Shown one piece after another: positions 2 to 43,140 of a stretch of DNA of 64,000 bases. Each line of letters starts with the position of its first letter. Position 1 is the stretch's first letter. The stretch comes from Fabrea salina (lineage: Eukaryota; Ciliophora; Heterotrichea; Heterotrichida; Fabreidae): NCBI GenBank assembly GCA_022984795.1, contig JALIHJ010000059.1, positions 94,575 to 158,574 of the forward strand, given 5' to 3'. The notes below the pieces were generated by a model. That model was not told the origin of the DNA, searched no databases, and saw nothing but the letters and a program-made list of their open reading frames with translations. Made by a program: the position numbers and the translations under genes.

Positions 2-1078
2 TTCAAAAAGCTTTCAAAACGCCTAAAACAAGAAAAAGACCGCATCAGAAAACTAAAAGAAGAAGACGCTAAACTCCGAGAACAAAAACTCATCAACATA
101 ATTGAACAACAAGAAAAACTCCAAAAAGAACAACAACTAAAAGCCCAACAACAAAGACAACAAAAAATCCAAGAAATGCACCAAAAGTCCATTTTGCGCA
201 AAAAAGAACTTGAGTCCCACAAAAAGATACTCAGAGAAAAACCTGAGTTCGAAAAACCCCTTTACGTGAAACTTGAAGAAAACTTTAAAAACAACTTCGA
301 ACTCCCTGAACTCGAAAGACGCAAAGCTGAACTCGCCAAAAAACGACTTAACTCCTCTATCAACCACGAAGAAATCAAAAACCACAAAACAAGGTACCAA
401 CAAGTACAACAAGAAAACGAACAACGACGCAAAAAACAACTAGAAAGCAACTCGATAGACAACAGTGTCCACTCAAGCATGCAAACTAAAAGTTACCAGT
501 CAGTAATAGAAGAAACCCAGTCCAAAAAGACCGCCCAAACTCAACGAGAAGAACTCCGCAAACAAATGCTCAGCAAGCAAAGACAGTACGGAAACCTCGT
601 AAGAGAAATGTTTGTTCCGCGAATAGACCCTTTTAAGAAAAAAGAAATCCAACTCAGAAAAGAAGCTATGTCCCTCAAACGCCCCAGACCCATCAGAAGG
701 GAAGAAAGTTCGTTGCAGCGTCTCTCACACGTAGAACACAAACTCAGAAAAAGACCTGTTGCCAAAAGCACCACTCCTAACATTGAACGCAAAAAGAGTT
801 ATGTAGACTACTTAGCTTTACGCAGAAACGAAAGGAAAAAGTTCGACGAGGAACTTAAACATTACTATGAAAAAGCTAAAGTTGAATTAGGCAGTGCAAA
901 TGACTATGAGTCCCTTAAAGGCTCTATAGAAAAAGCTGATAAAGTTCTTAAGAAAGGAGAGTACATGATAAAGTCTTCTTCACCCACTAACTTTTATGGA
1001 ATTCAACTTGAAGAAAACATTAACCAGACCTTGCTTGAGTCTGTCAGGGCTAAACTGCAGTTTTTAACTATTAATTAA
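2..1078 (+). CDS. Coiled-coil protein of unknown function, 5' end outside window
   Basis: The frame is open from base 2 to the TAA at 1076-1078, giving 358 residues of a longer protein. It is rich in Lys, Glu, Gln and Arg with almost no glycine or hydrophobic core. The first ~60 residues are a Gln/Lys/Glu heptad-like coiled coil. A short better-ordered patch reads YGNLVREMFVPRID, and a basic stretch follows. No catalytic domain is visible. The composition fits a cytoskeletal or axonemal structural protein, but that is inference. The stop overlaps that of the convergent thioesterase gene in the palindrome TTAATTAA (1071-1078), so both genes terminate within the same 8 bases. An ATG at 176 is merely internal. 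Confidence 0.75.
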   Translation, partial: FKKLSKRLKQEKDRIRKLKEEDAKLREQKLINIIEQQEKLQKEQQLKAQQQRQQKIQEMHQKSILRKKELESHKKILREKPEFEKPLYVKLEENFKNNFELPELERRKAELAKKRLNSSINHEEIKNHKTRYQQVQQENEQRRKKQLESNSIDNSVHSSMQTKSYQSVIEETQSKKTAQTQREELRKQMLSKQRQYGNLVREMFVPRIDPFKKKEIQLRKEAMSLKRPRPIRREESSLQRLSHVEHKLRKRPVAKSTTPNIERKKSYVDYLALRRNERKKFDEELKHYYEKAKVELGSANDYESLKGSIEKADKVLKKGEYMIKSSSPTNFYGIQLEENINQTLLESVRAKLQFLTIN

Positions 1079-2198
1079 GATAAGGCAGCACTAGCTTTTT
1101 AATGTCTTCAAAAGTGAACTCTAAGTGGTTGCCTTCAATGGAGTGGAGTACTATTTTTTGGGAAAGTGCTTTTAAGCCTAAGTAGTTGTTTAGGTAGTCT
1201 TGAGTGAGGTTCATAGGTACTACTTGTCTAGTGTTGACTTTGTAGTAACCAAACCACTCACTTTCAGGGGGGTCCACTACAGTGTCTTCTTGGAACTTTA
1301 CTAACACCATTTGGTCGATCTGAGCTAGCTTCTTCACGTAGTTCTCGTTTATAGTTTTTTCGTTGTTAGCTTGAGCTAAGAAGTTACTTTTCTCAAGGTA
1401 AGTTTGGTAGTCGAACTGGTCCTTGAAGTACCCTGCTGGGCCAAAGTGTCTTTGCACTAGCGAGTTGTAAACTCCTATGTCTGCTATGTAATTGATGATA
1501 TCGCAGAAGAACCCTGCTTTGCAGTTAGGCAATGTAGCTACTCCCATGTGGGGTCCTCCAAGTGTAACTAACGAGTGCACAGTTAAGTTACACTGCTCAG
1601 CCACTGCCCTAGCAATGAGGCCTCCCTGAGAAAGGCCCATAACGTGCAGTCCTTGTTGGAAGTAAGGGTTCTTCTGCAGGCTTTCACAAGCTTCTTGAGC
1701 TTGTTGGTTAAAAGGCATCAGCCAAGAAGAAACTGGGCCGGAGCCTATTTCTACACACTCAGTGTGGACTCCTCTTTCTTGCTGCATGTAAGCAGTGAAA
1801 TTCTTCATTCCTGGGAAGCAACAACAGTCTCCCAGTCCGTGGAATATCGCAAGTGGGATCTCTGATTTAGAACTTCCAGGTTTCCCGGGGCTGAACTTAA
1901 GCACCGTTTCAGAAACCTCAGCAAACTTATGGCGGATCTCAGTTCCAACTGAAAGCCCGTTTGAGTAGGTGTAAGATTCTTTTTTGGGGATTGAAAAGTC
2001 TACTTCTGACAAAAGGTTTTTTGTTCGCTCCATTCTGCAGGCTGATGCGTAGTCGTATAGGTTTTTCTTGTGGTTTTCAGAGAACTCTACAGAAGGGCAG
2101 TTGGTAAAGTCGTATTCTAGGTCAGCTCCTCTCAGAATGCCTTTTAAAAACTCTTCGTAGGCATAAGCTGCCCCGAGCAGTATCCAAATTATTCTCAT
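1071..2198 (-). CDS. PPT1: Palmitoyl-protein thioesterase (PPT1 family)
   Basis: 375 residues, alpha/beta hydrolase that removes thioester-linked palmitate from S-acylated proteins in the lysosome; the human counterpart is CLN1. Residues 1-14 form a short signal peptide. Family landmarks are in order: HGLGDCCCFPGM (residues 120-131), the nucleophile elbow MGLSQGG with Ser190, GGPHMGV (214-220), DPPESEWFGYY with catalytic Asp309, and GNHLEF with catalytic His358. Length is somewhat above the usual ~300 because of an N-terminal extension of about 110 residues before the hydrolase core. It lies 12 bp downstream of the WD40-channel gene on the same strand and ends tail to tail with the coiled-coil gene. 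A DHHC palmitoyltransferase is encoded 30 kb away. Confidence 0.95.
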   Translation of the reverse strand: MRIIWILLGAAYAYEEFLKGILRGADLEYDFTNCPSVEFSENHKKNLYDYASACRMERTKNLLSEVDFSIPKKESYTYSNGLSVGTEIRHKFAEVSETVLKFSPGKPGSSKSEIPLAIFHGLGDCCCFPGMKNFTAYMQQERGVHTECVEIGSGPVSSWLMPFNQQAQEACESLQKNPYFQQGLHVMGLSQGGLIARAVAEQCNLTVHSLVTLGGPHMGVATLPNCKAGFFCDIINYIADIGVYNSLVQRHFGPAGYFKDQFDYQTYLEKSNFLAQANNEKTINENYVKKLAQIDQMVLVKFQEDTVVDPPESEWFGYYKVNTRQVVPMNLTQDYLNNYLGLKALSQKIVLHSIEGNHLEFTFEDIKKLVLPYLN

Positions 2199-2210
2199 AT
2201 TATTATAAGG

Positions 2211-5200
2211 TTATTCAGTCTTTAGAAAATCCAGTACTTGGTCAAGCTTTTTTTCTATGTGCTGGACTCTTTGAGTGAGTGTTTTGGAAACTTGAGGAAT
2301 TTCGTCAGTTTTGGTTTTGATAGCTTTAATATCTTTGTGGAGTTTTCTAACTCTGCTTTCCCACTCTTCGTTTTCTCCTTCTTCAAAGTACTCCTCTAAA
2401 AAGTATAGGTACTGCCAGTCTTTTCTGTTTCTCCTCCAAAACAAGCTGTTCTCTACTTCTAGTATCTCTCCTAGTCTAATTCTCGTGTCCGACTCCTTTT
2501 TCTCGTAAGTTATTCTGTCAAACGACTCTGAAATTATCGATATCAGTAAGTTAAGCATAACTATGAGGTTCAGAACTGACCCTAAAATAAACAGAGTCCA
2601 CTGCAGTTCATCAAGTTCTGAACTTTCTAGGTTTCCAAGAAGCAAGTTATAGGAAACCTTAAATGACTCCCAAAAGTTTACTTCGTTAGTTGTGCCTAAC
2701 ATAGCACAGTAAGCCAGCACAAAATAAACCAGTATTCCTAGGAACCCTCTGATGTCTTTGGCCACCTCTTGGATTAACCAAATGTAGTACCTTGTAGAGT
2801 CCAGGACCTTAAATGCATTGACTCCTTCAAGCCAGAAAAACAGACTTGTAACTAAAGTTAAAGCGTTAGCTGAGTTCAGGTTGTCGAAGTCTGATGATAT
2901 TGAAAAATATACCCAAAGGTACCCTAAAATAAGTCTAAGCATGTCTAAGTAGTTCTTGAGTAAATAGAAGTAACTGACTCCTGAAGAATACAACTGGGCT
3001 ACTTCGAAAATAGTCAACAAAAAGTTAACTAGTAAAAAAGCACCTGCAAGTACTTGCTGAGTCGAAGTTTGACTTGAAAAAGTAATTCCTGTAATAAGCA
3101 CTACATTTACCAGACTGAGCAGTGCTAGCACCCAAAGTGTCCATTTAAACTTGCTCCACTTATAGTTGACTAGAGTCTGCACAAACTGACTTCGCAAGCA
3201 TTCAGCCCGCTCAGTGCCTTTAAGAGCCCTAAGAACTTCCAAGCTGTTCTGAGAACCTTCTAGAAAGTTGAACTTAAAGTTAGTGCGACCTACTTTAACG
3301 TCTCTAAGCTCAGCTAGTTCCTGGGAGGAGCAGCTGAGTAAGTCTGTTTGAGTTTTGTCGTAGATAGGCAACTTGTCTACTTTGATTGGCTTCACGGTTT
3401 CAAAAGTAAACGCTTGGCATAAAGAAGTTAGATGGGGTGAGTTGGTTTGAAGTACTTTAGGCAAGTCTCTGCCAATTCTAGAAAGCATTCGTCTCTTTTT
3501 TTCTTGGTCTTCTAGGTTCTTAATATACTTAAGAATTACTTCAGTGCACCTTTTCTTGTTTCTTTCGAGTGAAATGCTTAGTGGAGTCTTTCCTTCTGCA
3601 GACTCCAAAAAGTGGCACCCTGCTTCCAGTGCTTTTTGAAGCATTTCTTCCCTTCCTTGGTGAGCAAGCACGTGAAGGATGTTGATTCTCTGAGGCATAA
3701 GTGTTATTTCGTTGATGCTTTTGTTGTATTGGGTAGTTTTGCAAGTGGCTAGTTTCTTAAAGGCGTGTATTCCCAGGTCAGATCCTGGAAGAAATCTGTA
3801 GTTGTAACTGAGTTTAGTGAGTTTAATTGTATTGTCTTTAGAGCCAGATACTAGCCAGTCACTACTTTTCATTAGAGAAGTCACTTGGTTTCTATGCACT
3901 TTTATAACTCCTACTTGTTCTCTAGTGTCTAAGTTCCAGAACCTTATGGTATTATCCGCAGAAGCCGAAGCTAAGTAGTCGCCAACCACTTCCAAACTCC
4001 ATACTCGGTCACTGTGGCCTTCAAGAGTGGCTACTTCTTTGTTGGTGTTTAAATCCCATATTCTGATTGTAGTGTCTGTAGACCCTGACACCAAGTAGTT
4101 TCCAGTTGCTGCCAAGCATATAACCCAACCAGTATGTCCTTCGAAAGTAATTATTTCTTCTCTGGTGCTTATATCCCAAAACTTTATTGTAGTGTCTTGC
4201 GACCCTGATACCAAGTAGTTTTCAACTACTAGTAAACACAAAACAGCACCACTGTGCCCTCCCAGAACTGCTAGTTCTTGTTTGGTTTCTAAGTTCCAGA
4301 GTCTGATTGTTTTGTCTCTAGACCCTGAAGCCAGATACCTTCCAAATTTTACAACAGTCCAAACCCAGTCTTGGTGCCCTTCCAAAGTAAAAGTTTCTTG
4401 CATGGTTTCAATGCTCCAAAACTTGATTTTATGGTCATCAGACCCTGAAACTAATTGGCCATTAATAGGTTCTAGACAAAAGACTGTGCCTTCATGACCG
4501 TTTAAAACGCCTATCTCTCTCAGAGTGTTTTTATTCCATAGTTTAATTGTTGTGTCTTGCGATCCAGAAACTAAGTAGCCACTGACTTCGGTTAAAGAAT
4601 AAACAAAATCATTATGGGCTTTTAACTCAGTAACTTCTTTTTTAGTGTTTAGGCTCCAGACTCTGACTGTTTTGTCTGAAGACCCTGATATTAGGTAACC
4701 CTTTTGGATTGCTAAGCACTCTACTGGGTTAGTATGCTCTTCAAGACTAGCCACTTCTTCCTGTGTTTGGATGTTCCACACTTTAATTGTTCTATCACAG
4801 AACGCCGAAATCAGATAACCATCCATGGTTGCTAAACTAGTGACCCATGAAAAACTGCCTCTTAGAACAGTCAACTCACTCATTGATTCTAAGCTCCAAA
4901 ACCTGATTGTATTGTCTCGGGAACCCGATACTACTTGGTTGTTGACAGTGCTTAAGCTTGTTACTGGACCCATGTGCCCTCTTAATGTTTCTATTTGTTC
5001 TTTGTTTTCTATGTTCCAGACCCTTATGGTTTCATCATTAGAACCAGAAACTAAGTACCCGCTAAATTCTACTATGCACATGACCCAGTCAGTGTGGCCT
5101 TTTAAAGCACATACTTCCTTCTTGGTGTCTAGACTCCACAGCTTGATTGTATTATCTCCAGACCCTGACACTAAGCAATCTTTGGTAGTTGTTAGGCAAA

Positions 5201-5579
5201 GGACTGAACCAGTGTGTCCTTGCAGAGTTTCTACTTCTTGCATTGCTTCAATGTTCCATACTTTGATTTTTTTGTCATCTGACCCAGAAAACAGGTAATC
5301 ACCTACCTTTACCAGGCATTCAACTGTATCACTGTGCCCGTTCAGGGTTCCAACCTCTTCTTTGGTGCTTATGTCCCATATTTTGATTGTAGTGTCCTGA
5401 GATCCTGATGCAATGTAACCCCCTCCAACACAAACAGACAAAATGGAATCACTGTGTCCTTGCATAGTTTCACAGAGTTGTATGTTTTCCACTAACTGGT
5501 CTATGTCTTGTTTTTGGGGCTCTGCAAAGTTTTCTAGATGAGAACACTCAAGTTCGGGTTCAACCTTAGTCTCTGCCAT
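2211..5579 (-). CDS. WD40-ankyrin-TRP-like ion channel fusion
   Basis: 1122 residues in one uninterrupted frame. Residues 41-600 are fourteen WD40 repeats of exactly 40 residues each (typical unit GH..V..L....YLVSGS.DTTIK.WD), enough for two seven-bladed propellers. Residues ~635-690 look like degenerate ankyrin repeats (INILHVLAHQG, GKTPLSISLERN). Residues ~800-1030 carry six or so hydrophobic segments with the pattern of a TRP/ion-transport domain, including the pre-S6/S6-like stretch VMLNLLISIISESFDRI that is typical of TRPV/TRPA-type channels. The last ~55 residues form a coiled coil that could tetramerise the channel. I know ankyrin-TRP channels as a family, but a WD40 array in front of one is unusual. 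The ion specificity and the role of the propellers cannot be read from sequence. Confidence 0.85.
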   Translation of the reverse strand: MAETKVEPELECSHLENFAEPQKQDIDQLVENIQLCETMQGHSDSILSVCVGGGYIASGSQDTTIKIWDISTKEEVGTLNGHSDTVECLVKVGDYLFSGSDDKKIKVWNIEAMQEVETLQGHTGSVLCLTTTKDCLVSGSGDNTIKLWSLDTKKEVCALKGHTDWVMCIVEFSGYLVSGSNDETIRVWNIENKEQIETLRGHMGPVTSLSTVNNQVVSGSRDNTIRFWSLESMSELTVLRGSFSWVTSLATMDGYLISAFCDRTIKVWNIQTQEEVASLEEHTNPVECLAIQKGYLISGSSDKTVRVWSLNTKKEVTELKAHNDFVYSLTEVSGYLVSGSQDTTIKLWNKNTLREIGVLNGHEGTVFCLEPINGQLVSGSDDHKIKFWSIETMQETFTLEGHQDWVWTVVKFGRYLASGSRDKTIRLWNLETKQELAVLGGHSGAVLCLLVVENYLVSGSQDTTIKFWDISTREEIITFEGHTGWVICLAATGNYLVSGSTDTTIRIWDLNTNKEVATLEGHSDRVWSLEVVGDYLASASADNTIRFWNLDTREQVGVIKVHRNQVTSLMKSSDWLVSGSKDNTIKLTKLSYNYRFLPGSDLGIHAFKKLATCKTTQYNKSINEITLMPQRINILHVLAHQGREEMLQKALEAGCHFLESAEGKTPLSISLERNKKRCTEVILKYIKNLEDQEKKRRMLSRIGRDLPKVLQTNSPHLTSLCQAFTFETVKPIKVDKLPIYDKTQTDLLSCSSQELAELRDVKVGRTNFKFNFLEGSQNSLEVLRALKGTERAECLRSQFVQTLVNYKWSKFKWTLWVLALLSLVNVVLITGITFSSQTSTQQVLAGAFLLVNFLLTIFEVAQLYSSGVSYFYLLKNYLDMLRLILGYLWVYFSISSDFDNLNSANALTLVTSLFFWLEGVNAFKVLDSTRYYIWLIQEVAKDIRGFLGILVYFVLAYCAMLGTTNEVNFWESFKVSYNLLLGNLESSELDELQWTLFILGSVLNLIVMLNLLISIISESFDRITYEKKESDTRIRLGEILEVENSLFWRRNRKDWQYLYFLEEYFEEGENEEWESRVRKLHKDIKAIKTKTDEIPQVSKTLTQRVQHIEKKLDQVLDFLKTE
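3780..5459 (-). repeat. Fourteen 120-bp tandem repeats coding WD40 units
   Basis: The DNA behind residues 41-600 of the channel gene has a perfect 120-bp period with no spacer variation (14 x 120 = 1680 bp). Repeats 6 and 14 are the most divergent; repeat 6 has lost the GH dipeptide and has AFCD in place of GSxD. The rigid length suggests expansion by unequal crossover and selection for blade geometry. Confidence 0.9.
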
Positions 5580-14917: not shown

Positions 14918-14918
14918 C
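14834..14918. repeat. Repeat B copy 2
   Basis: Counterpart of 5817-5900. Here it touches the TAG stop of the LamG receptor gene, so it represents the 3' flank of that gene. Confidence 0.75.
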
Positions 14919-17900
14919 TAATTGGGACTCTGGACTTGGTGGGTCTTGACAAAAAGTGAGTTGTCTACTTGACTCTCAAAAGTGTTATGGAATCGAGTTT
15001 TAACTATTTCTGAAACTACTCGAGTCCTCTGGCACTTCCTTTTGATGAACTTGGCTATGGCCTGGAGTGCACCTGCAGCAACAAAGAGAGTTCGTAGTCC
15101 AATGAGTGCATAAGTTAAGTATATCACTGCTTCCTCTGCTTTGTGCTTGCCTCCCCAGTCACTCAAGAAGTACATCACAACTAGGTAGACCACAAACACT
15201 CCTGTTTCTACAATCACAGAGACTAGTTGCTGGAGTTTGTCTTTGTAGGGTCTCACTACTAACAGAAACACAGCAAACACAGCCATCAGAACAGTGTTGA
15301 TGGTGGCTTGTGTGTAGGGAAAGTTTGTCAGTAGAATGAGACTGACTCCTAACACCAGTCTTATGAGGGTAAACAAAGCGTAGGTATAACTAGCTTTGAA
15401 TCTCTCTGTGCAGTCGAATTCATAGAAGAGTGACTTGTAGCGTTTGTAGGTCTCTGATTCCTCTGACCCCTGTTGTGATTCCTTGATTGTAGTTTGGTTC
15501 TTTCTGCAAAAGACTACTATTGCACCTGGAGTGACTACTAGGATTACTCCCACTACAACTGCTGGAATCAAGTTATTGACCACTTCTCTTGCTATTGAGT
15601 CTACTGAGTAGAGCTGAATGAAGCAAGAGATAACCAAGTCCAAGTAAGTTTGAATCCAAAACCGAATAAGGACTCCATACTTGTACTTGGCCAGCAGTTT
15701 CTCACAGACTCTTTTGATCTTGGGTATTTTGGACAATAGCAAGATGACAGGCCACAGAGCTAGTAGAAACATGAGTACAGTCAAGTCTTTTCCTGCGTTC
15801 TCCAGAAACAAGTAAGACTCATACCCATATTCTTGAGAGTAGTAGTTGGGGTTAGGCCTGCTTTCAAAGTTAAACAAGTCAAAGGCACTGGGAATCATGC
15901 TTTTCAATGTATTGAGCCCCTTGAAGAATCCTCTGGCTCTAGGAGTGAGTGGGTTGGTAGTCAGAGGAATATAGGTCAGTATCTGGATAGTGTTCATAGT
16001 AGCCCACAGTCCTGAAGGATTGGGATTGAACACACCTGAAATTCCAGATATCATTAGTGCCAAGAAGGCTGTAGTTTGAGCTTGGCTTTCAGCTTGTTTG
16101 GCTTCTTCAGCTGAAGGATCATACTTGTAGAGTTGTACTTGGAGTACTTTGTCCTCGAGAATAGAGTTGGTTTCACTAACTACTCCAGAAGCATTAGTAA
16201 ACTCTAAGTAGGCCAGTTCTCCTTCAGACACGAAAGATTGGAAGCTGAGCTCAAACTTGTAGTCATCCCTCTTTGAGTAGCTGAACTCAATTGACTTGTT
16301 TTGTAAGTAGATGCTGTAGTCAGTTGGTGTTAGTTGGGAAATAGGAGTTTCAGAGAAAGTTAGAGTCAGAGTGTTGTCTTCTGCTGCAGTTAAGTTGGCG
16401 TAGAATAGTTGTCTTTGACAAAACCCGTTTTGGGAGAAGTAGCCTTGGTCACACTTACAGGTGTTGCTTGAGTTAAATGATGCGTTTTCTATGCACTTTG
16501 TGCATTCTTTTCCACTTAAACAAGTTGCACATAAGTCCATGCATTCTAAACACTCAGTTCCTTCTAAGTACTTGTCATCTGGACAAGGCCCACAAGAACC
16601 ATCAGGGTACAGGTACTCCTCGTAACATGAAGTGCAGTCGTTTCTAGACCCTCCGTTACAGGTTTTGCATGAAGAGTCACACTCCAAACAACTGTTGTCC
16701 TGAAGGTAAAAGCCTTCGTGGCACAAACAACTCCCTTCATCAATGTAGGAATTCTCAGGACACACACAGTTTCCGTCTGGACTTAAGAAAGAGTTGTTTA
16801 GTAGGCACTCTACACAGAAAATGCTCCGGGGGGAGCACTGCTGGCATTCAGTTTGGCACTCTTGGCAGTTTAGTCCGTCAGGGTCAGAGTTGTAGTAACC
16901 ATCCTTGCAGAAACACTCAGAATTAACTACTTCAGATGAGTCGTCTCCACAAGCAACACACTGGTCTTGGAGCAGCCCATACCCAGAGTTGCAAGTGCAA
17001 GGGGAGCCTCCTGCGTTTTCTTTGCAGTCAGTGCACTCGCCTAGTTCGAACCCTTCGCAAACATCACAAAGTGGGTTTGCACACAAATTGCAAGTGCCTT
17101 CTCTAGAGCACCCATACAAGCAGTCACTAGGGCACTCAGCACAGTTTTTTCCGTTCCAAAAAGAGTCAATTCCGCATTCAGGCAAGCAGTGGCTAGAGTT
17201 TTCAATTGGGCAAATTGAACAACCCTCTATGCAACCAGAGTCTAGGTACAAGGTTGTAGGATCTAAGGCGTAGTTGTAGAGCCTTACTTCCCATATGAAT
17301 CCCTTGAAGAAGTTTTCCAAAACTCCTGAACCCGAATAAGAAGCTCCAACAGAGAAGACAAAGTTGGTTGGTTCGTCAAGGTACCAAGTGCTTCCTAAGT
17401 TGGGGTCTTGGATTTCTACTTGGTTTGAAAGGGTGTTTATTTGGAACTGGTGTGATTCTATTGCAAAGCGAAATCCAAAGAAGTTCCAGGCCTCAACATT
17501 AAAAGGGGTTCCTACTGAGCTCTTAGTTCCTGAAGTCAACTCAATAACTGTTTTAGGGACTCCAGTGTCTAATTCAAAGCTTAGGAAGGTGGCAAAAGTA
17601 GTGTCTTCTTGCTTAGACAAAACAACTCCTGAGGAAGTTTGGGGCCTCACCCACATAGTAGCTGTAAACTCTGGTGCAATCCTAAGCAGTGGGTTTGAAT
17701 CCTCTGAATTTGGAGGCAGTTGCATAAAAGAGGTGCCAGTGAAGTAGTAACCCCTGTCTTTTGCTGCAAGAGGATCTGTAGAGTGATAGTTGGGGTAAAA
17801 GTCATTGTTGATCCCTGTGAGAACGGGAATTGAATTTTGGAGGTCAGGAACTTTGTTTTGGATTTTAGTGGGCCTCAAGTGAAAGCCAAAACCATCTACT

Positions 17901-20900
17901 AGATCACAAACCCCTGTGGCTGGTGTGAAGCCTGTAGGACAGAAACTTTGGCAAACTCCGTGGATCATGTACCCAGAAGAGCAAACTAGGCACTCGTCAA
18001 ACTCCCCAGAACTGCACTCTTTGCAGTTACTAGTGCAAGGCAGGCACTTATCGTAGACTTGGTAAAAGTCCTCTTTACACTCACAATCTCCAGTGTCAGG
18101 GTCGACTTCAGCGTTAGTTACACAGTCAGTACAAGTGTCTCCAAAAGTATTACAAATGTAGCACAGCTCATCAAAACAAAGATTACAGTCAGTACCTCTC
18201 ACGCAGCCATTAGCACAAGACACACCACACTCAGAGCACAAAGCATCTGGGTACTTATCAATGGGACAATTGCTAGCACAGGATGGGTCACTGGGGCAAG
18301 CTGTCATAGGGTAATCTTCCCCAGCTTTGTCTGCTACGTTGTAGACTTTCAAACTCCAAAGGAACCCTGTAAAGGAGTTTCCAGAGTCATCACCAATTTT
18401 AAAAGTGCTAGAATCGTCCTCAAGGTACTTAAGCCCCACAGACTGAGAATAGCCTTCATCTGAGTTGTCTACCTTAAGACTAACTTTAGTTGTTCCGTCA
18501 GACATTACTTCTCCAACAATGCAGTAATGCTTCCAGTTGTTTTTCAAGTCACTGGTCCCAGTTAAAGAAATGAGTTCACTTTGAGCCTTTACTTCAACCT
18601 TGAGACTGCCACTCAAAAAACTCACAGTAATTCTGCCATCTGAGCCTTCAATTCCTTTGTATAAAAACTGCCCTCCATCAGACAATAGCTTAGTCCAGCC
18701 CAGAATGGTAAAGTGTGGGGCAATGAACAAGTTAGTTTCTGAGTAAGCACTGGAGTGGAAATAGTAACCACGGTCTTTTGCAGGCCAAGGATCGTTGTTG
18801 TCCAGCAAGGGGTAAAAGTCATTGGATACTCCATAGTTTAGGTTTCCTAAGTTTCCTTTGATGTGGTCATAGAACTCCAGACCCAAAACAAGCTCATTGC
18901 CGTTATTGCAGGTCTGGCTTGCTACACTAAACCCATCAGGGCATTGACTAAGACACATTTTCCCGTATATCAAGTTTTTGCCTCCTACACAAGCAGTGCA
19001 TTCAAAGTACTCAGGACCAGTGCATTCTGAACAAGGCCCAACGCAAGGTTCACAAGAGTCTGAAGCAAGGTAGTGCCCACCTGTGCACTCACAAGGATCT
19101 CCAGAAGAATTAGGGATGCAGCTAAGGCATGCGTTGTTTTGGAAACTTTGGCAATCATCACACAAGGGGTCGTCACAAGGGTTGCAGTGTGTAGAGTCTA
19201 TACACCCATTCGGACAAGAATCACAGGGTTGTGGGTCACCGTTGGAGTCTTGGTATTCCTGAACTCCAGTGTTCCAAAAGCAATTGCCATACTGCCCAGC
19301 TCCACAGTACTCGTTTTGATACTCGTGAGTGAAGTCAGAAATAGCCTCTTGCCACAACTTAATCGAGTAAATGTATCCCTGGCTGCTTGAACCAGATCCC
19401 CCAATCTTAAAGAAGTGTCCCCCAGGGTGTCTGAACAGTCTGTCTTCAATGCTGTAATTCGAGTCTTCTGTATTGTCTACATAGGACCTAAGGATGGTTT
19501 TGTACTTGTAGTAAAACTCACAAGAAAAGGCCAGGTGCTTCCAAACTCCAGTGGGCACTGAAACTCCCACTGAATGGGTAGTTCCACTCTCAAAAAAGTC
19601 TTCAAGGGTCAAAGTCATTGCAGAGTCACTAATGTCTAGGAAGCTCCCCTTTGAAACAATACTTCCTGAGGAGAAAAGCCTCACCCACATACTAACTGTA
19701 AAGGTGTGGTACAACTCCACTTCGTCTTTGGTGACAACGTACTTTGTGGTGTCAAAGTAAATTCCTCTGGACTTTAAGGGTAGAACGTCATCAGTGTCAG
19801 GGGAAGTAAATGGGTGGTAAGTGCTAGGGTCACTTCCGCTGTTGAAGTAAGAAAAGTCTTTGGGGAACTTTGAAAAGTCTTCTTGAAGAACTACTCCGGG
19901 ATAAGTGTTGGGGCAACTGAACTGGTAAGGACACACATACATGCAGATCTCTTCAACAATCACGTTCTGGCAACTTCTACATACCCAAGGAAACACTCTG
20001 CAGTCTGAGCATTGAGTGTCACAGGCAACACAGTCAGGCAAATTGCAGGTTGTAGTTGATTGGCAAGAACCAGAGTTCACAAGGGTGTTAAACTCGCAGT
20101 TGGACAGTCCTGGGTGGGAGTCAGTTACTCTTAAGTTAGAGTTTCTGAAGTTGAGTCTGTACAAGAACCCTTCAAAACTTTGGTCAGTGTCAGTAGCTCC
20201 AATTCTCCACTTTAAGTCAGAGGGGTTCTGGTCGTACCTGTACCAGCAGTTCTTGTTAATGTGGTGAGAGTAACTCTTAGAACTATCTTTGTAGCCCTTA
20301 AAGTAGCAGTGGTCTTCTGTTATCCACTCAAACTTTATGTAAATCTCGATTTTGTGCCAGTCAGTGTTGCTGTTTATTTCATAGCTAAAGTCAACTCTGG
20401 AAGTTGATCCAGAACCCATAAGAGTATTTAAGTAGTAGTTAGAAAACCTCCACTTATCGGCGAGATATGAAATTTCGTACTCAGTGCGAGAACTAGACTT
20501 GAGTGTGAATAGTTTTCCTTGGTCTAGTGGGCGCGCCCAAAAGGTAAGGATGTGCCAAAAAGAGGGAATGTAAACCTCATCGGTTTTAAGGGAAGACTGT
20601 TCGTGGAAGTAAAACCCCCTTTCTGAGGCTGGAACAGGCGAAACTTTTGTGTAGTGGCCAAAAGCCTGATTATTTGGGGTATAAAAACTACCTATTGTGC
20701 TAGAACTTTGGTCTAATACCGAATCAAACTGCAAGTTAAAAATTTCCCTTGCTCCTGTTAAGTCCTCGACACACTCAGTGCTTCCCCAGTTGTCTGAAGA
20801 GAGAGGAGTGTTCTGGGAGGAATACCCCGATGGGCAATTCTTGATGCATTTGTAGTAGATCCAATTGTACCCACTACTTGAGTCACAGTTGCAACAACGG

Positions 20901-20989
20901 GAGCCAGATATACATCTAGACTCGCAGTAGTTGCTACTCCAAACAACTAGGAAGTAGTTGATGAGCATTCCAAGGGTAAGCAATAACAT
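14918..20989 (-). CDS. Giant receptor with four LamG-like modules, furin-like Cys repeats and multi-pass membrane end
   Basis: 2023 residues. A signal peptide (MLLLTLGMLINYFLVVWSS) is followed by four LamG/concanavalin-like modules, each opened by a signature close to A.[DE]RGYYF and each followed by CxxC furin-type repeats: roughly 70-300, 370-560, 690-880 and 1060-1260. A long Cys-rich run (~1270-1490) precedes a Calx-beta-like segment (~1500-1620) and then 7-8 membrane spans (~1640-1970), including VIRPYKD-like LLVVRPYKDK. The cytoplasmic tail carries FVKT, shared with the paralogue at 9373. The type is common in ciliate genomes, where such proteins are usually annotated only as membrane proteins with Cys-rich repeats. 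The LamG modules suggest glycan or adhesion-ligand binding. The C-terminal topology resembles fungal TRP/Flc proteins, but that link is tentative. Confidence 0.8.
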   Translation of the reverse strand: MLLLTLGMLINYFLVVWSSNYCESRCISGSRCCNCDSSSGYNWIYYKCIKNCPSGYSSQNTPLSSDNWGSTECVEDLTGAREIFNLQFDSVLDQSSSTIGSFYTPNNQAFGHYTKVSPVPASERGFYFHEQSSLKTDEVYIPSFWHILTFWARPLDQGKLFTLKSSSRTEYEISYLADKWRFSNYYLNTLMGSGSTSRVDFSYEINSNTDWHKIEIYIKFEWITEDHCYFKGYKDSSKSYSHHINKNCWYRYDQNPSDLKWRIGATDTDQSFEGFLYRLNFRNSNLRVTDSHPGLSNCEFNTLVNSGSCQSTTTCNLPDCVACDTQCSDCRVFPWVCRSCQNVIVEEICMYVCPYQFSCPNTYPGVVLQEDFSKFPKDFSYFNSGSDPSTYHPFTSPDTDDVLPLKSRGIYFDTTKYVVTKDEVELYHTFTVSMWVRLFSSGSIVSKGSFLDISDSAMTLTLEDFFESGTTHSVGVSVPTGVWKHLAFSCEFYYKYKTILRSYVDNTEDSNYSIEDRLFRHPGGHFFKIGGSGSSSQGYIYSIKLWQEAISDFTHEYQNEYCGAGQYGNCFWNTGVQEYQDSNGDPQPCDSCPNGCIDSTHCNPCDDPLCDDCQSFQNNACLSCIPNSSGDPCECTGGHYLASDSCEPCVGPCSECTGPEYFECTACVGGKNLIYGKMCLSQCPDGFSVASQTCNNGNELVLGLEFYDHIKGNLGNLNYGVSNDFYPLLDNNDPWPAKDRGYYFHSSAYSETNLFIAPHFTILGWTKLLSDGGQFLYKGIEGSDGRITVSFLSGSLKVEVKAQSELISLTGTSDLKNNWKHYCIVGEVMSDGTTKVSLKVDNSDEGYSQSVGLKYLEDDSSTFKIGDDSGNSFTGFLWSLKVYNVADKAGEDYPMTACPSDPSCASNCPIDKYPDALCSECGVSCANGCVRGTDCNLCFDELCYICNTFGDTCTDCVTNAEVDPDTGDCECKEDFYQVYDKCLPCTSNCKECSSGEFDECLVCSSGYMIHGVCQSFCPTGFTPATGVCDLVDGFGFHLRPTKIQNKVPDLQNSIPVLTGINNDFYPNYHSTDPLAAKDRGYYFTGTSFMQLPPNSEDSNPLLRIAPEFTATMWVRPQTSSGVVLSKQEDTTFATFLSFELDTGVPKTVIELTSGTKSSVGTPFNVEAWNFFGFRFAIESHQFQINTLSNQVEIQDPNLGSTWYLDEPTNFVFSVGASYSGSGVLENFFKGFIWEVRLYNYALDPTTLYLDSGCIEGCSICPIENSSHCLPECGIDSFWNGKNCAECPSDCLYGCSREGTCNLCANPLCDVCEGFELGECTDCKENAGGSPCTCNSGYGLLQDQCVACGDDSSEVVNSECFCKDGYYNSDPDGLNCQECQTECQQCSPRSIFCVECLLNNSFLSPDGNCVCPENSYIDEGSCLCHEGFYLQDNSCLECDSSCKTCNGGSRNDCTSCYEEYLYPDGSCGPCPDDKYLEGTECLECMDLCATCLSGKECTKCIENASFNSSNTCKCDQGYFSQNGFCQRQLFYANLTAAEDNTLTLTFSETPISQLTPTDYSIYLQNKSIEFSYSKRDDYKFELSFQSFVSEGELAYLEFTNASGVVSETNSILEDKVLQVQLYKYDPSAEEAKQAESQAQTTAFLALMISGISGVFNPNPSGLWATMNTIQILTYIPLTTNPLTPRARGFFKGLNTLKSMIPSAFDLFNFESRPNPNYYSQEYGYESYLFLENAGKDLTVLMFLLALWPVILLLSKIPKIKRVCEKLLAKYKYGVLIRFWIQTYLDLVISCFIQLYSVDSIAREVVNNLIPAVVVGVILVVTPGAIVVFCRKNQTTIKESQQGSEESETYKRYKSLFYEFDCTERFKASYTYALFTLIRLVLGVSLILLTNFPYTQATINTVLMAVFAVFLLVVRPYKDKLQQLVSVIVETGVFVVYLVVMYFLSDWGGKHKAEEAVIYLTYALIGLRTLFVAAGALQAIAKFIKRKCQRTRVVSEIVKTRFHNTFESQVDNSLFVKTHQVQSPN

Positions 20990-27704: not shown

Positions 27705-30700
27705 ATGTCGAAATGGAACTATGTTGCCAGTGCGCACAAATCCAGCGCAGTGGTAGAGTCACTAACTGCAGGATTGACTTCTGCTGACCAAAGAAACTTA
27801 ATACTGGCCAAAGGCAACCGTTTGGAGCTTTACAAACTCTCAGAAGAAGGGTTGGTGCCTTTGCAAGAAATCTCTATCTTGGGAATGATCAAGTTTGTGC
27901 ACAAACTCAACGCACCCCAAAAGGACTACTTGCTCATAGTAACCCAGCCCTATGCTGTAAGTATTGCTACTTATGAAGCAAACACCATCAGTATCTTGGA
28001 AAGCGCCCAGATACAGGAGCCCACAAGGACCTCCCCTACAGCTTTGCCCCTAGCCAGTCTGGACCCCTACGAACGGGTTTACGCTTTGCACTTGTTCACT
28101 GGACTACTTAGAGTCATTCAGATAACTGACCAAAAAAGCATCAGGACAGAGTTCAATGTGAGACTTGAAGAAGACGAAATCCGCGACATCCAGATTCTAG
28201 ACGAGCCCTCAGAACTCCTTTTGGGAGTCATTTACTCTAAAAAAACAGAGTTTGTTTTAAAAGTGTACTCCATCAAACTTCAAGGATACTCAATGGAAGA
28301 AACTACCTGGGTTTACAAGTTCCAACACTCCACTTACAAAATCATGAGTTCTCCCGGGAAAGTAGGAGTGCTTCACGAAGCAGGAGTAGTTGTGTACGAC
28401 CTTCAAACTGGACACCCCATGAGTTTCAACGCGCACTTGAAAGAAGTAACGAGCTGCAACAAAGTAGACTCCAACAGGTGGATTCTAGGAAACACCAGCG
28501 GAGAGATTTACTTGCTTTGTGCAAACACAGGCATAGAACTGAAACTACTGGGGCAGTGCGTTACTCCTAACTCAATTACTTACTTAGACAACAACTACTT
28601 TTTCGTAGGGTCGAGCACAGGGGACTCCTCGCTCATAAAGGTTTTGGAGCAACAAGAAAACGGGTCTTACATCAAAGTAATTCAGTCTTACCCTAACTTG
28701 GCGCCAATGCTGGACTTTTTGGTGCTGGAAGGCGAAAAAAAAGGCAACTCAGACATCATAGCTTGTGCAGGGCATAACTTAGACGGAAGCATAAGACTAG
28801 TGAACAAAGGAGTAGGCGTTTACATAGAGCAAGAAGCTGAACTAGGCAAAATCGAGTCACTTTGGTCACTTAAGTTAGGCGAGCACTACTCTCACTTAGT
28901 TTTGAGCTTCTTCGACAAAACTAGGATTCTGAGAATGAATGAAACCGAACTAGAACCTGCGGAGTACAGCGACTTTCAAAGCAACACTACAAGTTTGTAC
29001 ATTTCAACCCTTTCTTTTGGAATTGTGCAAGTTACTCCTGAAGAAGTAGCAGTCTACAACTTTAACTGGGAGCCTTTCTACAAGTTGAGTCCTGGAGGCA
29101 GAATTTCTTTAGGAGACTCCTCAAACGACCACTTAGTTTTAGTCATGGATGAAGATTCCTTGGTGAGTTATTCTTTAACTCCAAAAGGCTACCAAGAAAC
29201 AGGCAGATGGGAAGCCCCTTACGAAGTCAGCAGTGTGTGCATGGAGGCAGAGTTAGTAGCAGTGGGTCTTTGGACTGAAATGAGTATTTGTGTGTTGTTT
29301 TACCCCTCCTTCACCCTAGTTAAAAAAGAAGTGTTGGGAGGCGACGTGTTTGTAAGGTCATTGCTGTTTGCAGAGATGGAAGACATTAAGTACTTGTTTG
29401 CTGGTTTGGCAGACGGGCACTTGCTTACTTACACTTTGCCTGACTTCTTTATGAAGAGTGTCCTCATAGGGAACCAACAGGTTACTTTGAAAGAGTTCAA
29501 CTTCCAAAATTGCAACTATGTTTTTGCTTCTTGTGACCAACCTGCTGTTGCTTACAGCACTCACCAAAGGGTTTTTTACGCAAGCGTAAACACAGAGCAA
29601 GCTTCGTGCATGGCTCCTTTTTACACTGAAGCTTTTCCAGACTGCTTAGCATTGGTTTCAGGAATGAATTTAGTTATGATTAGCATTGAAGAGATCCAAA
29701 GGTTTTCAATTAGGACTTTTCCAATGGGAATGACTGTGAGGAGGATTGGGGCTTTGGAGGAGTGTTTTGTGTGCTTAGGGTACTTCAGCAGTGGAAGGAG
29801 CTGTCTTTTGCTTTTAAACCAAAACTTCATGGTGATGGACACTTACGAGTTCCCTGAAGCCGAGGTTGGAAATGCCCTTCACGTTAACGGCAGAAAGATC
29901 TACGCAGGGTCCTACATAACTGACGACCCACAAAACGAACCCACTAAAGGAGTCATTTACGTGTTTGTGAAAAACAACGAGAGACTTACTAGAGTTCAGT
30001 CGGAGGTCGTAGAGGGGTCAGTTTCTTGTTTGGGAGTAGTGCAGCAGAAGTACTTAGTAGCTGGAGTGAACTCATACATCCACTACTACTCTTTAGAACA
30101 CTCAGAACTCTCACTCATCGAAAAAGACCAAAAACTAACCTACATAATAGGCATGGACACCTTTGAAGAACTAGTAGCTTTCCTAGACATCACTCGTTCA
30201 GTGTCTGTTTTCAGAGCTGGCGAAAAACTTGTGCCAATTGCCAAGAACCTGTACTCACTGTTTCCAACAGCAGTGCAGTTTATTTCAAGGGAGTTTTTGT
30301 TGGTTTCAGACATGTTTTGCAACGTGCACTTGCTGACTTTTACTTCAGGACGGATGCTGAGCATTGTAGGAGCTTATTACTTAGGAGAAATGGTGAACCA
30401 CATGAGGAGAGGAAGTTTGATACAAGGAGGAAGCGAAGACCTTCCAAAGGGCATCGAAAGTGTTTTGTTAGGGACAACTAAAGGGTGTTTGGGAGTGGTG
30501 GTGAGTCTTCCCTACGAAACTTACGAAGTGCTTTTCCAACTTCAAAGCATTCTTGGAAATATGAAGGTCAAGAGCCAAATATGGCAGCTCAGCAAGTTCA
30601 GAAGTCCACAAGTTAAAGGAAAGCCCATCCCCTGGGAAGGCTTTTTAGACGGCGACTTCATTGAAGGGTTTCTGAGCTTGTCTCCTCAGGAACAGTCTAC

Positions 30701-30791
30701 AGTTTGCATGGAAGTGAGCAACAACCTTGGAAGGACCCTTACTCCACAAGAACTCCAAAGACTAGTTTTAGCTCTTTCTAAAGTGCATTAA
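27705..30791 (+). CDS. DDB1: DDB1-like damage-specific DNA-binding protein / CUL4 adaptor
   Basis: 1028 residues from ATG 27705 (MSKWNYVASAHKSSAV). The start matches DDB1's MSYNYVVTAQKPTAV pattern, followed by NLILAKGNRLELYKL. Later landmarks include FNVRLEEDEIRDIQIL, YFFVGSSTGDSSLIKVL and the C-terminus GDFIEGFLSLSPQ with a final TPQELQRLVLALSKVH helix, all in family order. DDB1 is a three-propeller scaffold that links substrate receptors to the CUL4 E3 ligase in DNA repair, replication and chromatin control. Length is slightly below the animal ~1140. It shares 12 bp of upstream sequence with the divergent membrane gene. The CPSF160/SF3b3 relatives are less likely given the N-terminus. Confidence 0.93.
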   Translation: MSKWNYVASAHKSSAVVESLTAGLTSADQRNLILAKGNRLELYKLSEEGLVPLQEISILGMIKFVHKLNAPQKDYLLIVTQPYAVSIATYEANTISILESAQIQEPTRTSPTALPLASLDPYERVYALHLFTGLLRVIQITDQKSIRTEFNVRLEEDEIRDIQILDEPSELLLGVIYSKKTEFVLKVYSIKLQGYSMEETTWVYKFQHSTYKIMSSPGKVGVLHEAGVVVYDLQTGHPMSFNAHLKEVTSCNKVDSNRWILGNTSGEIYLLCANTGIELKLLGQCVTPNSITYLDNNYFFVGSSTGDSSLIKVLEQQENGSYIKVIQSYPNLAPMLDFLVLEGEKKGNSDIIACAGHNLDGSIRLVNKGVGVYIEQEAELGKIESLWSLKLGEHYSHLVLSFFDKTRILRMNETELEPAEYSDFQSNTTSLYISTLSFGIVQVTPEEVAVYNFNWEPFYKLSPGGRISLGDSSNDHLVLVMDEDSLVSYSLTPKGYQETGRWEAPYEVSSVCMEAELVAVGLWTEMSICVLFYPSFTLVKKEVLGGDVFVRSLLFAEMEDIKYLFAGLADGHLLTYTLPDFFMKSVLIGNQQVTLKEFNFQNCNYVFASCDQPAVAYSTHQRVFYASVNTEQASCMAPFYTEAFPDCLALVSGMNLVMISIEEIQRFSIRTFPMGMTVRRIGALEECFVCLGYFSSGRSCLLLLNQNFMVMDTYEFPEAEVGNALHVNGRKIYAGSYITDDPQNEPTKGVIYVFVKNNERLTRVQSEVVEGSVSCLGVVQQKYLVAGVNSYIHYYSLEHSELSLIEKDQKLTYIIGMDTFEELVAFLDITRSVSVFRAGEKLVPIAKNLYSLFPTAVQFISREFLLVSDMFCNVHLLTFTSGRMLSIVGAYYLGEMVNHMRRGSLIQGGSEDLPKGIESVLLGTTKGCLGVVVSLPYETYEVLFQLQSILGNMKVKSQIWQLSKFRSPQVKGKPIPWEGFLDGDFIEGFLSLSPQEQSTVCMEVSNNLGRTLTPQELQRLVLALSKVH

Positions 30792-34872: not shown

Positions 34873-37332
34873 TTAATTCACTAGTTCGTCCCAGTTAGGC
34901 TCAAAGGAGCTCTGTACATCTTCTGGGGAGTACTTAGGTTTAAAGGGAGGCGTTAGGCTTTGCTGCAGTAAAGCCTCCCAGTCAAACCCAGCAAACCACT
35001 CGTGCTTCTTAATAGACTCATGAGAGGACCCCAGTCTTGCTTCAGGAAGCTTAGAAAGCAGTTGTTCTAAAAAAGCCTTTGTTGGGTCCTCAGCTTCAAT
35101 AACTATTTTCATTTCAAGTATTTCGCTGTAAATCTCGTAGGGGTCTTCTAGGCCTGAACCAAAAGGCACACTTCCAAACAAAAACTCGTACAAGCACACT
35201 CCTAAACTCCAGTAGTCCACACACTTAGTGTAGCCTAGCCCCGCTATGACTTCTGGAGCTGTGTAGTAAGGAGTTCCTACTAAGGTAAAGGTTCTGTTTT
35301 TCAATACTTTGGCATTAGTAAGCCCTGTGAGTTTCAGAGTGCCTTGCTCGTCTACCATTAAGTTATCCGGACAAATGTTTCTGTGAACTATTTTCCTTTC
35401 ATGCAGGTAATGGATGCTCAGAATTATAGAAGCAGTGTAAAACTGGGCTTCAGACACTGAAAAAGTACCTGACTGCTCAAGTGCAAAATCCAATGTAAAG
35501 CCTTTTATGTACTCTAACATTAGAAAAAACCTTTTTTGGTCTTCAAAAGTAGTAACTAACTTGTATATAAAAGGATGGTCTAGCATCTGAAGTGCCTCTT
35601 TTTCGTAGAAAAAGCACTGAGCCAGTAAGTCTTTTGGGTAGACTTTAAGAACATACACACAATCCTTCTCGCAGTTAGTGACTTTATAAACTTTAGTGGT
35701 GCCGTTTCCCAAAAGCTTCACAACTTGGAGTTCATACAAAGAAACTTCTTCATCCTCCAACTCTACTCTGTGCAGCAGGTCTTTGCGGACTTTATCGTTG
35801 ATCACAGAAGTGAAGTCTGAGTTCTGCACTGCCCAAAGAGTCACACTTCCTTGAGCAACACATTTTACCTCAGAAGTCCCAAACAAAAGAGCCCTTTCTC
35901 CAAAGTAGTCGTGCTTAGTAGCCACCCTCACCACTCTGTTTCTCTGAGAAACCTCCACCCTTCCTCTTTTAACTATAAAGATGCAATTGTTTCTGGAATT
36001 CTTCCCACAAATCACTTCTCCGTGTTTGTACTTCTCAATTTGTATCATATTGAACAAGTACTTAAAGTTTTTGTTGTCTATGTGACGGAACAAGTTAACC
36101 TTCATCAAAATATTAGTTGCAGCGTTTTCTTTAACTACTTCTGAGAATTTGCCTCCTATACACACTTCGAACTGGTACTTAGTAAGCTCTCCTACTGAAG
36201 TGTTTTTTTCGTTGCCAGCTATTACATCATCCCAGTAAACATCTTCAGGAGGACTTGTTTGTGTTACGTACTCTGCACCTACTGAGTTTCCTTTGTCTGC
36301 AAAAACCAAACCACTCCGGGCATACTTTAAGTTGCCCTCTAAAACAAAGTACAATTTGGACTTGCAAAGAGTGTTTGCGTGAATCACAACATCCCCTCCT
36401 TTATAGTGTTTAATGCTTAAGCCTTCTTTTATTTGTCTTTTTTGGTGCTTGTTGAGGCAAGAAAGGGTTTCTGACTTACTTATGGCTTCAAATATAGTGT
36501 TGGTTTGGATAATGTTTTGTAAGTTGTTTCCTAACACCCTTTGCAAAGTCTCTCTAGCTAAACAAACGCACTTAACTGTCCCTTCCAAGGCTACACAAGT
36601 AGCAGTTCGCAAAGAGTTGTAGAGCAAAGCTTGTTCTCCAAAGTAACTTCCAGGAGCGCACCTTGCGACTTCAAGGTTTTCTTTCTGTATGGACACAGTG
36701 CCTTCTTTAATTATAAACAAGTACTGTCCCGTTTCTCCTTCAGTCACTATCTTCTGCCCAGCTTGGTACTTCAGTGTAACTAAGTTAGCTGCCAGTATGT
36801 CTTTTTGTTCTGAGCTTAAAGAACTCAAAAGCGAGACCTTCTCTAGAAACTCCCTGTTTTCTTCAAAGCTTTTGATGTTAACTTCTTCCACCACCTTTCT
36901 GAAGTTTTCGCGGTGTATTCCCCATAGTGTGCAGAAGTCAAAAGCCACTACACTTGCATTGTTCTTTTTTTGGTGGAGCAAAGAAAGTTCCCCAAAGCCT
37001 TCTCCAGGAAGGACTCTGTTTACTTTTTTGCCGTCAATAACCACTTCTAAGTAACCAGTGCGCAGTACAAAGTAAGTGTCAGAGGTTTCGTTTTGAACCA
37101 TAATGGCACTGTTGGCCTTAAACGAGTAAAGGTCCATAGACTCAGCAATTACTTCTTTGTCCTCTTCACTCAAACTAGTGAAAATAAAGTGGCTGTTAAG
37201 TGCAGAAACAATCATATTGAAGTCTTCAGATACTTTGCAGGGAACTTTAGTTACTTCAGGCACAGCTACTAAGTCCACTTCTTTTTTCACACTGAAATAG
37301 TTGTGCTTTAACTTAGTGCAGCCATGTCCCAT
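34873..37332 (-). CDS. PKG-like protein with four CNB domains and a probably inactive kinase domain
   Basis: 819 residues. The start MGHGCTK suggests N-terminal acylation. Four cyclic nucleotide-binding domains follow (~50-145, 160-270, 280-400, 405-515). Only CNB2 keeps the full phosphate-binding cassette (FGEQALLYNSLRTATC); CNB1 (FGELSLLHQKKNNAS) and CNB4 (FGERALLFGTSEVKC) lack its Arg, and CNB3 is degenerate. The kinase domain (~530-785) keeps a Gly loop (LGNGTTKVYKV) and the VLKVYPK lysine, but HRD reads HRN (codons near 35380-35393) and DFG reads TGL (near 35320-35335). APE is intact (TAPEV) and an AGC tail follows. The architecture is that of alveolate PKG; the missing base and metal-binding Asp point to a pseudokinase that senses cGMP. 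Confidence 0.92.
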   Translation of the reverse strand: MGHGCTKLKHNYFSVKKEVDLVAVPEVTKVPCKVSEDFNMIVSALNSHFIFTSLSEEDKEVIAESMDLYSFKANSAIMVQNETSDTYFVLRTGYLEVVIDGKKVNRVLPGEGFGELSLLHQKKNNASVVAFDFCTLWGIHRENFRKVVEEVNIKSFEENREFLEKVSLLSSLSSEQKDILAANLVTLKYQAGQKIVTEGETGQYLFIIKEGTVSIQKENLEVARCAPGSYFGEQALLYNSLRTATCVALEGTVKCVCLARETLQRVLGNNLQNIIQTNTIFEAISKSETLSCLNKHQKRQIKEGLSIKHYKGGDVVIHANTLCKSKLYFVLEGNLKYARSGLVFADKGNSVGAEYVTQTSPPEDVYWDDVIAGNEKNTSVGELTKYQFEVCIGGKFSEVVKENAATNILMKVNLFRHIDNKNFKYLFNMIQIEKYKHGEVICGKNSRNNCIFIVKRGRVEVSQRNRVVRVATKHDYFGERALLFGTSEVKCVAQGSVTLWAVQNSDFTSVINDKVRKDLLHRVELEDEEVSLYELQVVKLLGNGTTKVYKVTNCEKDCVYVLKVYPKDLLAQCFFYEKEALQMLDHPFIYKLVTTFEDQKRFFLMLEYIKGFTLDFALEQSGTFSVSEAQFYTASIILSIHYLHERKIVHRNICPDNLMVDEQGTLKLTGLTNAKVLKNRTFTLVGTPYYTAPEVIAGLGYTKCVDYWSLGVCLYEFLFGSVPFGSGLEDPYEIYSEILEMKIVIEAEDPTKAFLEQLLSKLPEARLGSSHESIKKHEWFAGFDWEALLQQSLTPPFKPKYSPEDVQSSFEPNWDELVN

Positions 37333-42723: not shown

Positions 42724-43140
42724 ATGAAAGAATTAGTTATTTTGTGTCATGTAGTACCGGCACTCACAGGAACCTACTTAGTAATAAAGCAAAGCTCAAG
42801 GAAGTTCTTCTGCATTTGTGACAAAATTCCTGTTGGACAAAGCACTCCACAGTGTGTAATAGGAATAGCCTCACACACCTTAGGGATACTCATGAACCTA
42901 GGAAGCCTGAAAGGTTACGATTACTACCCTTGCTCTTTATGGCTTTTTATGATGCTTTACACAGGAATGTATACTTACAAAAGCTTTAAGGAGTTATGCT
43001 TAGGGTGTTTTTTGATGATGACGTTTGGTTTAGCTTCAGTTGTGGCTTCACTGATTAGCTTGCCTTATGTTCCTTACTACTCCTTTTGTGCTTACCTAGT
43101 TTTAATTTTTGTGTCTCTTCTAGCAACTCCAGTTAATTAA
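42724..43140 (+). CDS. Small multi-pass membrane protein
   Basis: 138 residues, with four or more hydrophobic stretches: ILCHVVPALTGTYLVI, CVIGIASHTLGILMNL, LWLFMMLYTGMY, LGCFLMMTFGLASVVASLI and FCAYLVLIFVSLLA. No signature of a transporter or enzyme seen. Eight Cys. Stop overlaps the convergent PIH1 gene by 4 nt (TTAA). Confidence 0.75.
   Translation: MKELVILCHVVPALTGTYLVIKQSSRKFFCICDKIPVGQSTPQCVIGIASHTLGILMNLGSLKGYDYYPCSLWLFMMLYTGMYTYKSFKELCLGCFLMMTFGLASVVASLISLPYVPYYSFCAYLVLIFVSLLATPVN

Follow-up and report, generated by a model that had tools for sequence, protein, structure and literature searches.

A Fabrea salina reading frame that joins fourteen WD40 repeats to an ion-channel domain, probably TRP-like

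In a stretch of 64,000 nucleotides from the ciliate Fabrea salina (the window), one reading frame on the minus strand, at 2211-5579, carries both a WD40 array and an ion-channel domain of the Ion_trans type. We consider it probable that it encodes a single protein, the subunit of a TRP-like cation channel with six spans, and that this subunit has at its N-terminus a double WD40 propeller, followed by a short ankyrin-like or helical linker, the pore and a C-terminal coiled coil. The features discussed below are the following (residues are those of the protein):

2211..5579, minus strand: complete open reading frame of 1122 aa in the standard code, ATG to TAA (codon usage)
3786..5465, minus strand: 14 WD40 repeats with an exact 40-aa period, residues 39-598, probably two 7-bladed propellers (Pfam WD40, register and lag test, model strands)
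3513..3731, minus strand: weak ankyrin-like stretch in the linker, residues 617-689 (phmmer, Pfam Ank_2 below cut-off)
2505..3146, minus strand: six-span ion-channel domain, residues 812-1025 (Pfam Ion_trans, residues 800-1045)
2625..2687, minus strand: putative pore helix and filter loop, about residues 965-985, ...NLLLGNLES... (helix in a low-confidence model; presumed position)
2319..2663, minus strand: pore-S6 and following helix, residues 973-1087, NCBIfam trp (TIGR00870 below its full-length cut-off)
2220..2375, minus strand: C-terminal coiled coil, weakly predicted, residues 1069-1120 (Tropomyosin-type match, helices in a low-confidence model)

The reading frame and the WD40 array

The frame at 2211-5579 is intact from ATG to TAA over its 1122 residues in the standard code (it is also open under table 11), and it contains no in-frame TGA when TGA is read as tryptophan. 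Neither a stop nor a change of frame occurs where the WD40 array joins the channel. We scored its codon usage in blocks of 90 residues, taking 17 further long frames from the window as the reference, over residues 1-1080 (the final 42 residues were left out). The frame scores better than both other forward frames in 12 of the 12 blocks and is the best of all six frames in 11; the exception is the block 181-270, where one reverse frame reaches 0.13 against 0.00. Across the join the score is continuous (0.39 for the block 541-630 and 0.42 for the block 631-720). The absence of a stop or frame change at the join, together with this in-frame codon usage, leads us to reject, at the DNA level, the reading of two genes as one. 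Together with the lag test and the Ion_trans match described below, it bears out the original prediction that array and channel lie in one frame.

Tiny introns were considered as well. The frame holds 39 strings of the form GT...AG, 11 of them of 15 nt and 28 of 16 nt. Removal of any of the 16-nt strings would shift the frame, and the array would lose its exact 40-residue register if a string within it were removed. The tail has four strings of 15 nt (frame bases 2465, 2537, 2758 and 2899) which may conceivably be introns that keep the frame. The genome is compact here, since a palmitoyl-protein-thioesterase-like gene on the same strand (1071-2198, minus strand) begins only 12 bases beyond the stop of our frame. 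No paralogue of the protein was found among the frames of at least 40 aa of the window, the best other blastp match having an E value of 0.61.

Pfam WD40 matches the protein in 14 stretches (E 3.7e-108), and the repeats start every 40 residues, from residue 39 to residue 559. Within the array the identity at a lag of 40 residues reaches 0.402; the highest value seen in 2000 shuffles (the best of lags 30-49) was 0.116. The repeats had been described as fourteen invariant units of 40 residues; this is right as to their number and constant length, but their sequence varies. Pairwise identity between repeats averages 42% in protein (25-60%), 55% in DNA and 43% at third codon positions, and only two of the 40 columns (S20 and D24) are identical in all 14 repeats. 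Hence the array is neither young nor homogenised. At a lag of seven repeats the identity is 0.44, which does not exceed that of lags 1-6 (0.40-0.44), so that there is no sign that a whole propeller was duplicated.

The number and spacing of the repeats (14, with a period of 40) are those of WD40 propellers, the blade-like strands being those of a single-sequence model only. This model, made with AlphaFold from the single sequence over 705 residues, has a mean pLDDT of 58.7 (the other four models have 26.8-40.7), and 269 of the 705 residues reach a pLDDT of at least 70. Each of the first 13 repeats has four strands in it, and repeat 14 has three. Confidence falls below 50 mainly in residues 1-53, in the greater part of 281-331, which corresponds to repeat 7 and the first part of repeat 8, and in most of the sequence from residue 571 on. 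Two better blocks around a weak middle fit loosely with seven plus seven blades, without proving them. The two propellers which had been suggested are therefore plausible, the four-stranded blades and the weak middle being set against the low confidence of a model built on one sequence.

A Foldseek search with this model gave, as its top matches, chains with several propellers (SSU-processome subunits, Apaf-1, Gemin5); axonemal doublet proteins and single designed propellers are also among the best 50, for which the query TM-score ranges from 0.20 to 0.41 and the rmsd from 6.7 to 20.5 A. Since propellers in general resemble each other (the search gave 1913 matches at E<=0.001), these matches give no functional link. 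The PDB sequences closest to the array are the consensus-like propellers Tako8/Ika8 and 2ymu, Tako8 being an eight-bladed design according to the PDB titles; these are soluble propellers, whereas the Fabrea array is linked to a channel. Tubulin, IFT or G-protein-like proteins had been proposed as docking partners of the propellers. The array being generic, these proposals are guesses.

The channel domain, the linker and the C-terminus

In the segment of residues 800-1045, Ion_trans matches with 25.2 bits against a cut-off of 25 (E 1.1e-5), over positions 2-238 of the 241 of the model. This segment was picked after the first Pfam scan, and a pass by 0.2 bits is thus not independent evidence; in longer pieces the score is 21.9 bits (the 531-aa tail) and 22.4 bits (a 289-aa piece), both under the cut-off. 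In the full protein Ion_trans is not among the best 25 of 46 Pfam families, all of which are WD40 or propeller families from many different proteins. None of five controls (one reversed sequence and four shuffles keeping the hydrophobic pattern) gave an Ion_trans match. We give more weight to the span of the match and to these controls than to the narrow pass of the cut-off.

Kyte-Doolittle peaks above 1.4 mark four clear spans, not six (S1, S2, S5 and S6), and a false-looking peak appears inside the WD40 array, at residues 434-454. S3 and S4 stay below the threshold and rest on helices of a low-confidence model and on the span of the Ion_trans match. In that model of the channel (pLDDT 46, which is poor) the helices are placed as six spans with one helix between S5 and S6. 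A fold search with this model gave no match at E<=0.001, and we take nothing but helix positions from the model; two ryanodine receptor chains that the search ranked 13 and 20 (E about 0.4) are meaningless at this model quality. The six-span channel of the original prediction is fairly firm, with an Ion_trans score at the cut-off and no match in five controls.

The domain had also been called TRP-type. The NCBIfam model trp (TIGR00870) matches the pore-S6 region and the helix after it with an E value of 7.2e-6, and the isolated segment 973-1028 with 3.1e-5; no trp match was found for one reversed sequence and two shuffles. Only part of the model is matched and the score, 24.3 bits, is far under the full-length cut-off of 498.75. 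A classical voltage sensor has a ladder of charges in S4, and TRP channels generally lack such a ladder. The predicted S4 stretch (residues 900-925, as placed by the low-confidence model) has one basic residue and no charge ladder. Among PDB sequences, the S1-S5 part found two chains, both of TRPM8, at a non-significant E value of about 2. From the partial trp match and the S4 stretch we regard the channel as likely, not proven, to be TRP-like, and we name no subfamily.

Two weakly matched parts of the proposed architecture are the linker and the C-terminus. A phmmer comparison with a construct of Ankyrin-1/2 gave a whole-sequence E value of 3.6e-7, which is summed over the many repeats of the construct; no single stretch scores above 8.3 bits, which is not significant by itself. 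With Pfam Ank_2 at an E value of 0.0074, below its cut-off, "ankyrin-like" holds for the linker as a weak resemblance over residues 617-689. This Ank_2 stretch was the one ankyrin signal from Pfam, and the protein shows no long N-terminal ankyrin array like that of the ankyrin-bearing TRP subfamilies. The C-terminal coiled coil fared similarly: helices appear there in a low-confidence model, and a Tropomyosin match has an E value of 0.015, again below the cut-off.

Possible mode of action and alternatives

The general plan of TRP channels consists of a repeat module, a linker, six spans, a helix after S6 and a coiled coil. Because the domain order of the Fabrea protein repeats this plan, its propellers probably bind a partner which positions the channel or acts on its gate. 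In such a channel the cytosolic N-terminus would be a double WD40 propeller in place of a long ankyrin array. Four subunits, kept assembled by their membrane domains and coiled coils, would form a cation pore, probably conducting Ca2+. Eight propellers per tetramer would then hang in the cytosol and bind the partner, which could either fix the channel in place or alter its opening via the linker, pressing against the helix after S6. A more general proposal, which we put forward as possible and somewhat short of an even chance, is that ciliates have a class of TRP-like channels with a double WD40 propeller instead of the ankyrin array, and that partners of the propellers directly position or gate these channels.

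Other readings must be weighed against the single WD40-channel subunit. Translation or transcription could also start inside the gene, near residues 628-698, and yield a free channel, the full-length form being minor. Methionines at 628, 646 and 698 would allow this. However, no stop follows the array, so that WD40 repeats without the channel could arise only by splicing or cleavage, and the codon usage runs on in frame over the join; we hold these two products to be very improbable. By analogy with the ankyrin array of TRP-N/NOMPC, the WD40 array might instead be mainly a mechanical tether, a gating spring, and it does lie N-terminal to a TRP-like pore, in the same position as in TRP-N. But closed propellers are compact and do not form a superhelical spring, and we find this reading improbable, if less so than the two products. 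The spring hypothesis itself is set out for the TRP-N ankyrin array in an extract of PMC4494053.

The strongest of the alternatives, which we still judge unlikely, keeps the WD40 fusion as real and takes "TRP" to be a mislabel: the six spans would belong to a different branch of the superfamily, for instance a polycystin-like channel or another Ion_trans family. Ion_trans is indeed unspecific and matches TRP domains along with many non-TRP ones (PMC4494053), the trp match covers part of its model and stays far under the cut-off, and there is a very weak match (E 0.69) to CLZ, the C-terminal zipper of cyclic-nucleotide-gated channels. Against this, when the channel part was scanned on its own with NCBIfam up to an E value of 10, trp was the sole model listed, and neither a PKD_channel nor a K-channel pore model appeared up to the same value, although HMMER filters drop most weak matches.

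If the protein is expressed and functional, a TRP-like channel can have its cytosolic repeats exchanged for a quite different scaffold fold, and ciliates would let one ask an old question, whether the N-terminal repeats of TRP channels are springs, anchors or ligand sensors. The gene is also a candidate for sensory currents of ciliates; to our knowledge, most of the channel genes behind these currents are unassigned.

Relatives and the rest of the window

TRP channels often carry N-terminal repeats of the ankyrin type, which makes WD40 repeats at this position an unusual combination. Ciliates are known to join channels to other modules, as in their adenylyl cyclase-channel fusions; there the added module is an enzyme, here it is a repeat scaffold. 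Channels extended by repeats have entries in ciliate databases, and a WD40-channel fusion may be recorded there without having been discussed. Many WD40 repeats per chain are also found in the tandem WD40 proteins (Utp/WDR3/TBL3 of the SSU processome, Gemin5), which are among the best Foldseek matches of the array and which, as far as we know, are not joined to a membrane channel. The ankyrin-bearing channels TRPV, TRPC, TRPA1 and TRP-N (for TRP-N, see PMC4494053) have, like the predicted Fabrea channel, cytosolic N-terminal repeats, a six-span Ion_trans domain and a helix after S6. The Fabrea protein also has a weak ankyrin-like stretch before S1, but its main N-terminal module consists of 14 WD40 repeats and its ankyrin part is very short and weak.

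No homologue that would speak for conservation of the fusion was found among the viral and genome contigs that were searched. With the 531-aa tail, viral contigs gave 15 pattern matches, none of which is a relative. With the full protein, genome contigs gave 24 pattern matches, of which two loci (Phycisphaerales, Planctomycetota) show 23% identity in the WD40 part only. Ion_trans matches at E<=0.001 occur in 158 of 294 genomes of one prokaryote phylum. As a side check (the fusion is not expected in prokaryotes), a profile of the 14 repeats was run on the six loci with the longest open frames among the matches listed, with frames of at least 200 aa; it matched none of these six, and both of the Phycisphaerales and Planctomycetota loci.

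Among the titles listed, which were those of open-licence papers only, we found no WD40-TRP fusion, an absence that is weak evidence. "WD40" does not occur in the extracted main text of PMC10762896, PMC7935092, PMC3681921 or PMC4494053. The extract of PMC5068960 has WD40 in FAP16 (named ADF3 there), not in the TRP channel ADF1, and that of PMC6564038 lists WD40 among the domains of species-specific Tetrahymena genes and does not contain the word "channel". In a table of PMC9958989 on the MIC-enriched proteins of Oxytricha, the counts are 26 for WD40/YVTN, six for TRPV and five for the ion transport domain, each domain being counted separately. Such a co-occurrence in one proteome fraction may be a lead that the fusion class reaches beyond the genome of Fabrea.

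Stentor is a heterotrich with the standard code. In our window, 23 frames reach at least 250 aa when TGA is read as tryptophan; 21 of them contain no TGA and two contain one each. The right end of the window (63233-63999) is a telomere array of 95 copies of an 8-base unit, which is a permutation of CCCTAACA on the other strand. According to PMC9942806, CCCTAACA is the telomere repeat of the heterotrich Blepharisma, which reads UGA as tryptophan. The array suggests that the contig ends at the end of a macronuclear chromosome.

Several other genes lie in the window. A 2023-aa protein (14918-20989, minus strand) contains Laminin_G_3 in three stretches, and at its C-terminus Pfam TRP (PF06011) matches weakly, under the cut-off, with an E value of 7.9e-6; it is possibly another membrane protein of the TRP-like type, with extensive extracellular regions. 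A 1756-aa protein (57623-62893, plus strand) has two Guanylate_cyc stretches, its first 914 residues giving no Pfam match at E values up to 0.1, and a gene resembling cyclic-nucleotide-dependent protein kinases (34873-37332, minus strand) encodes three cNMP-binding stretches and a kinase domain. There are also a gene of the tubulin-tyrosine-ligase family (40040-41806, plus strand) and a PIH1-domain protein (43137-44531, minus strand), which we take from its family to be of the dynein-assembly type. Finally, propeller models are matched elsewhere in the window by a protein of the RSE1/DDB1/CPSF1 type (27705-30791, plus strand), which carries two of them together with CPSF_A.
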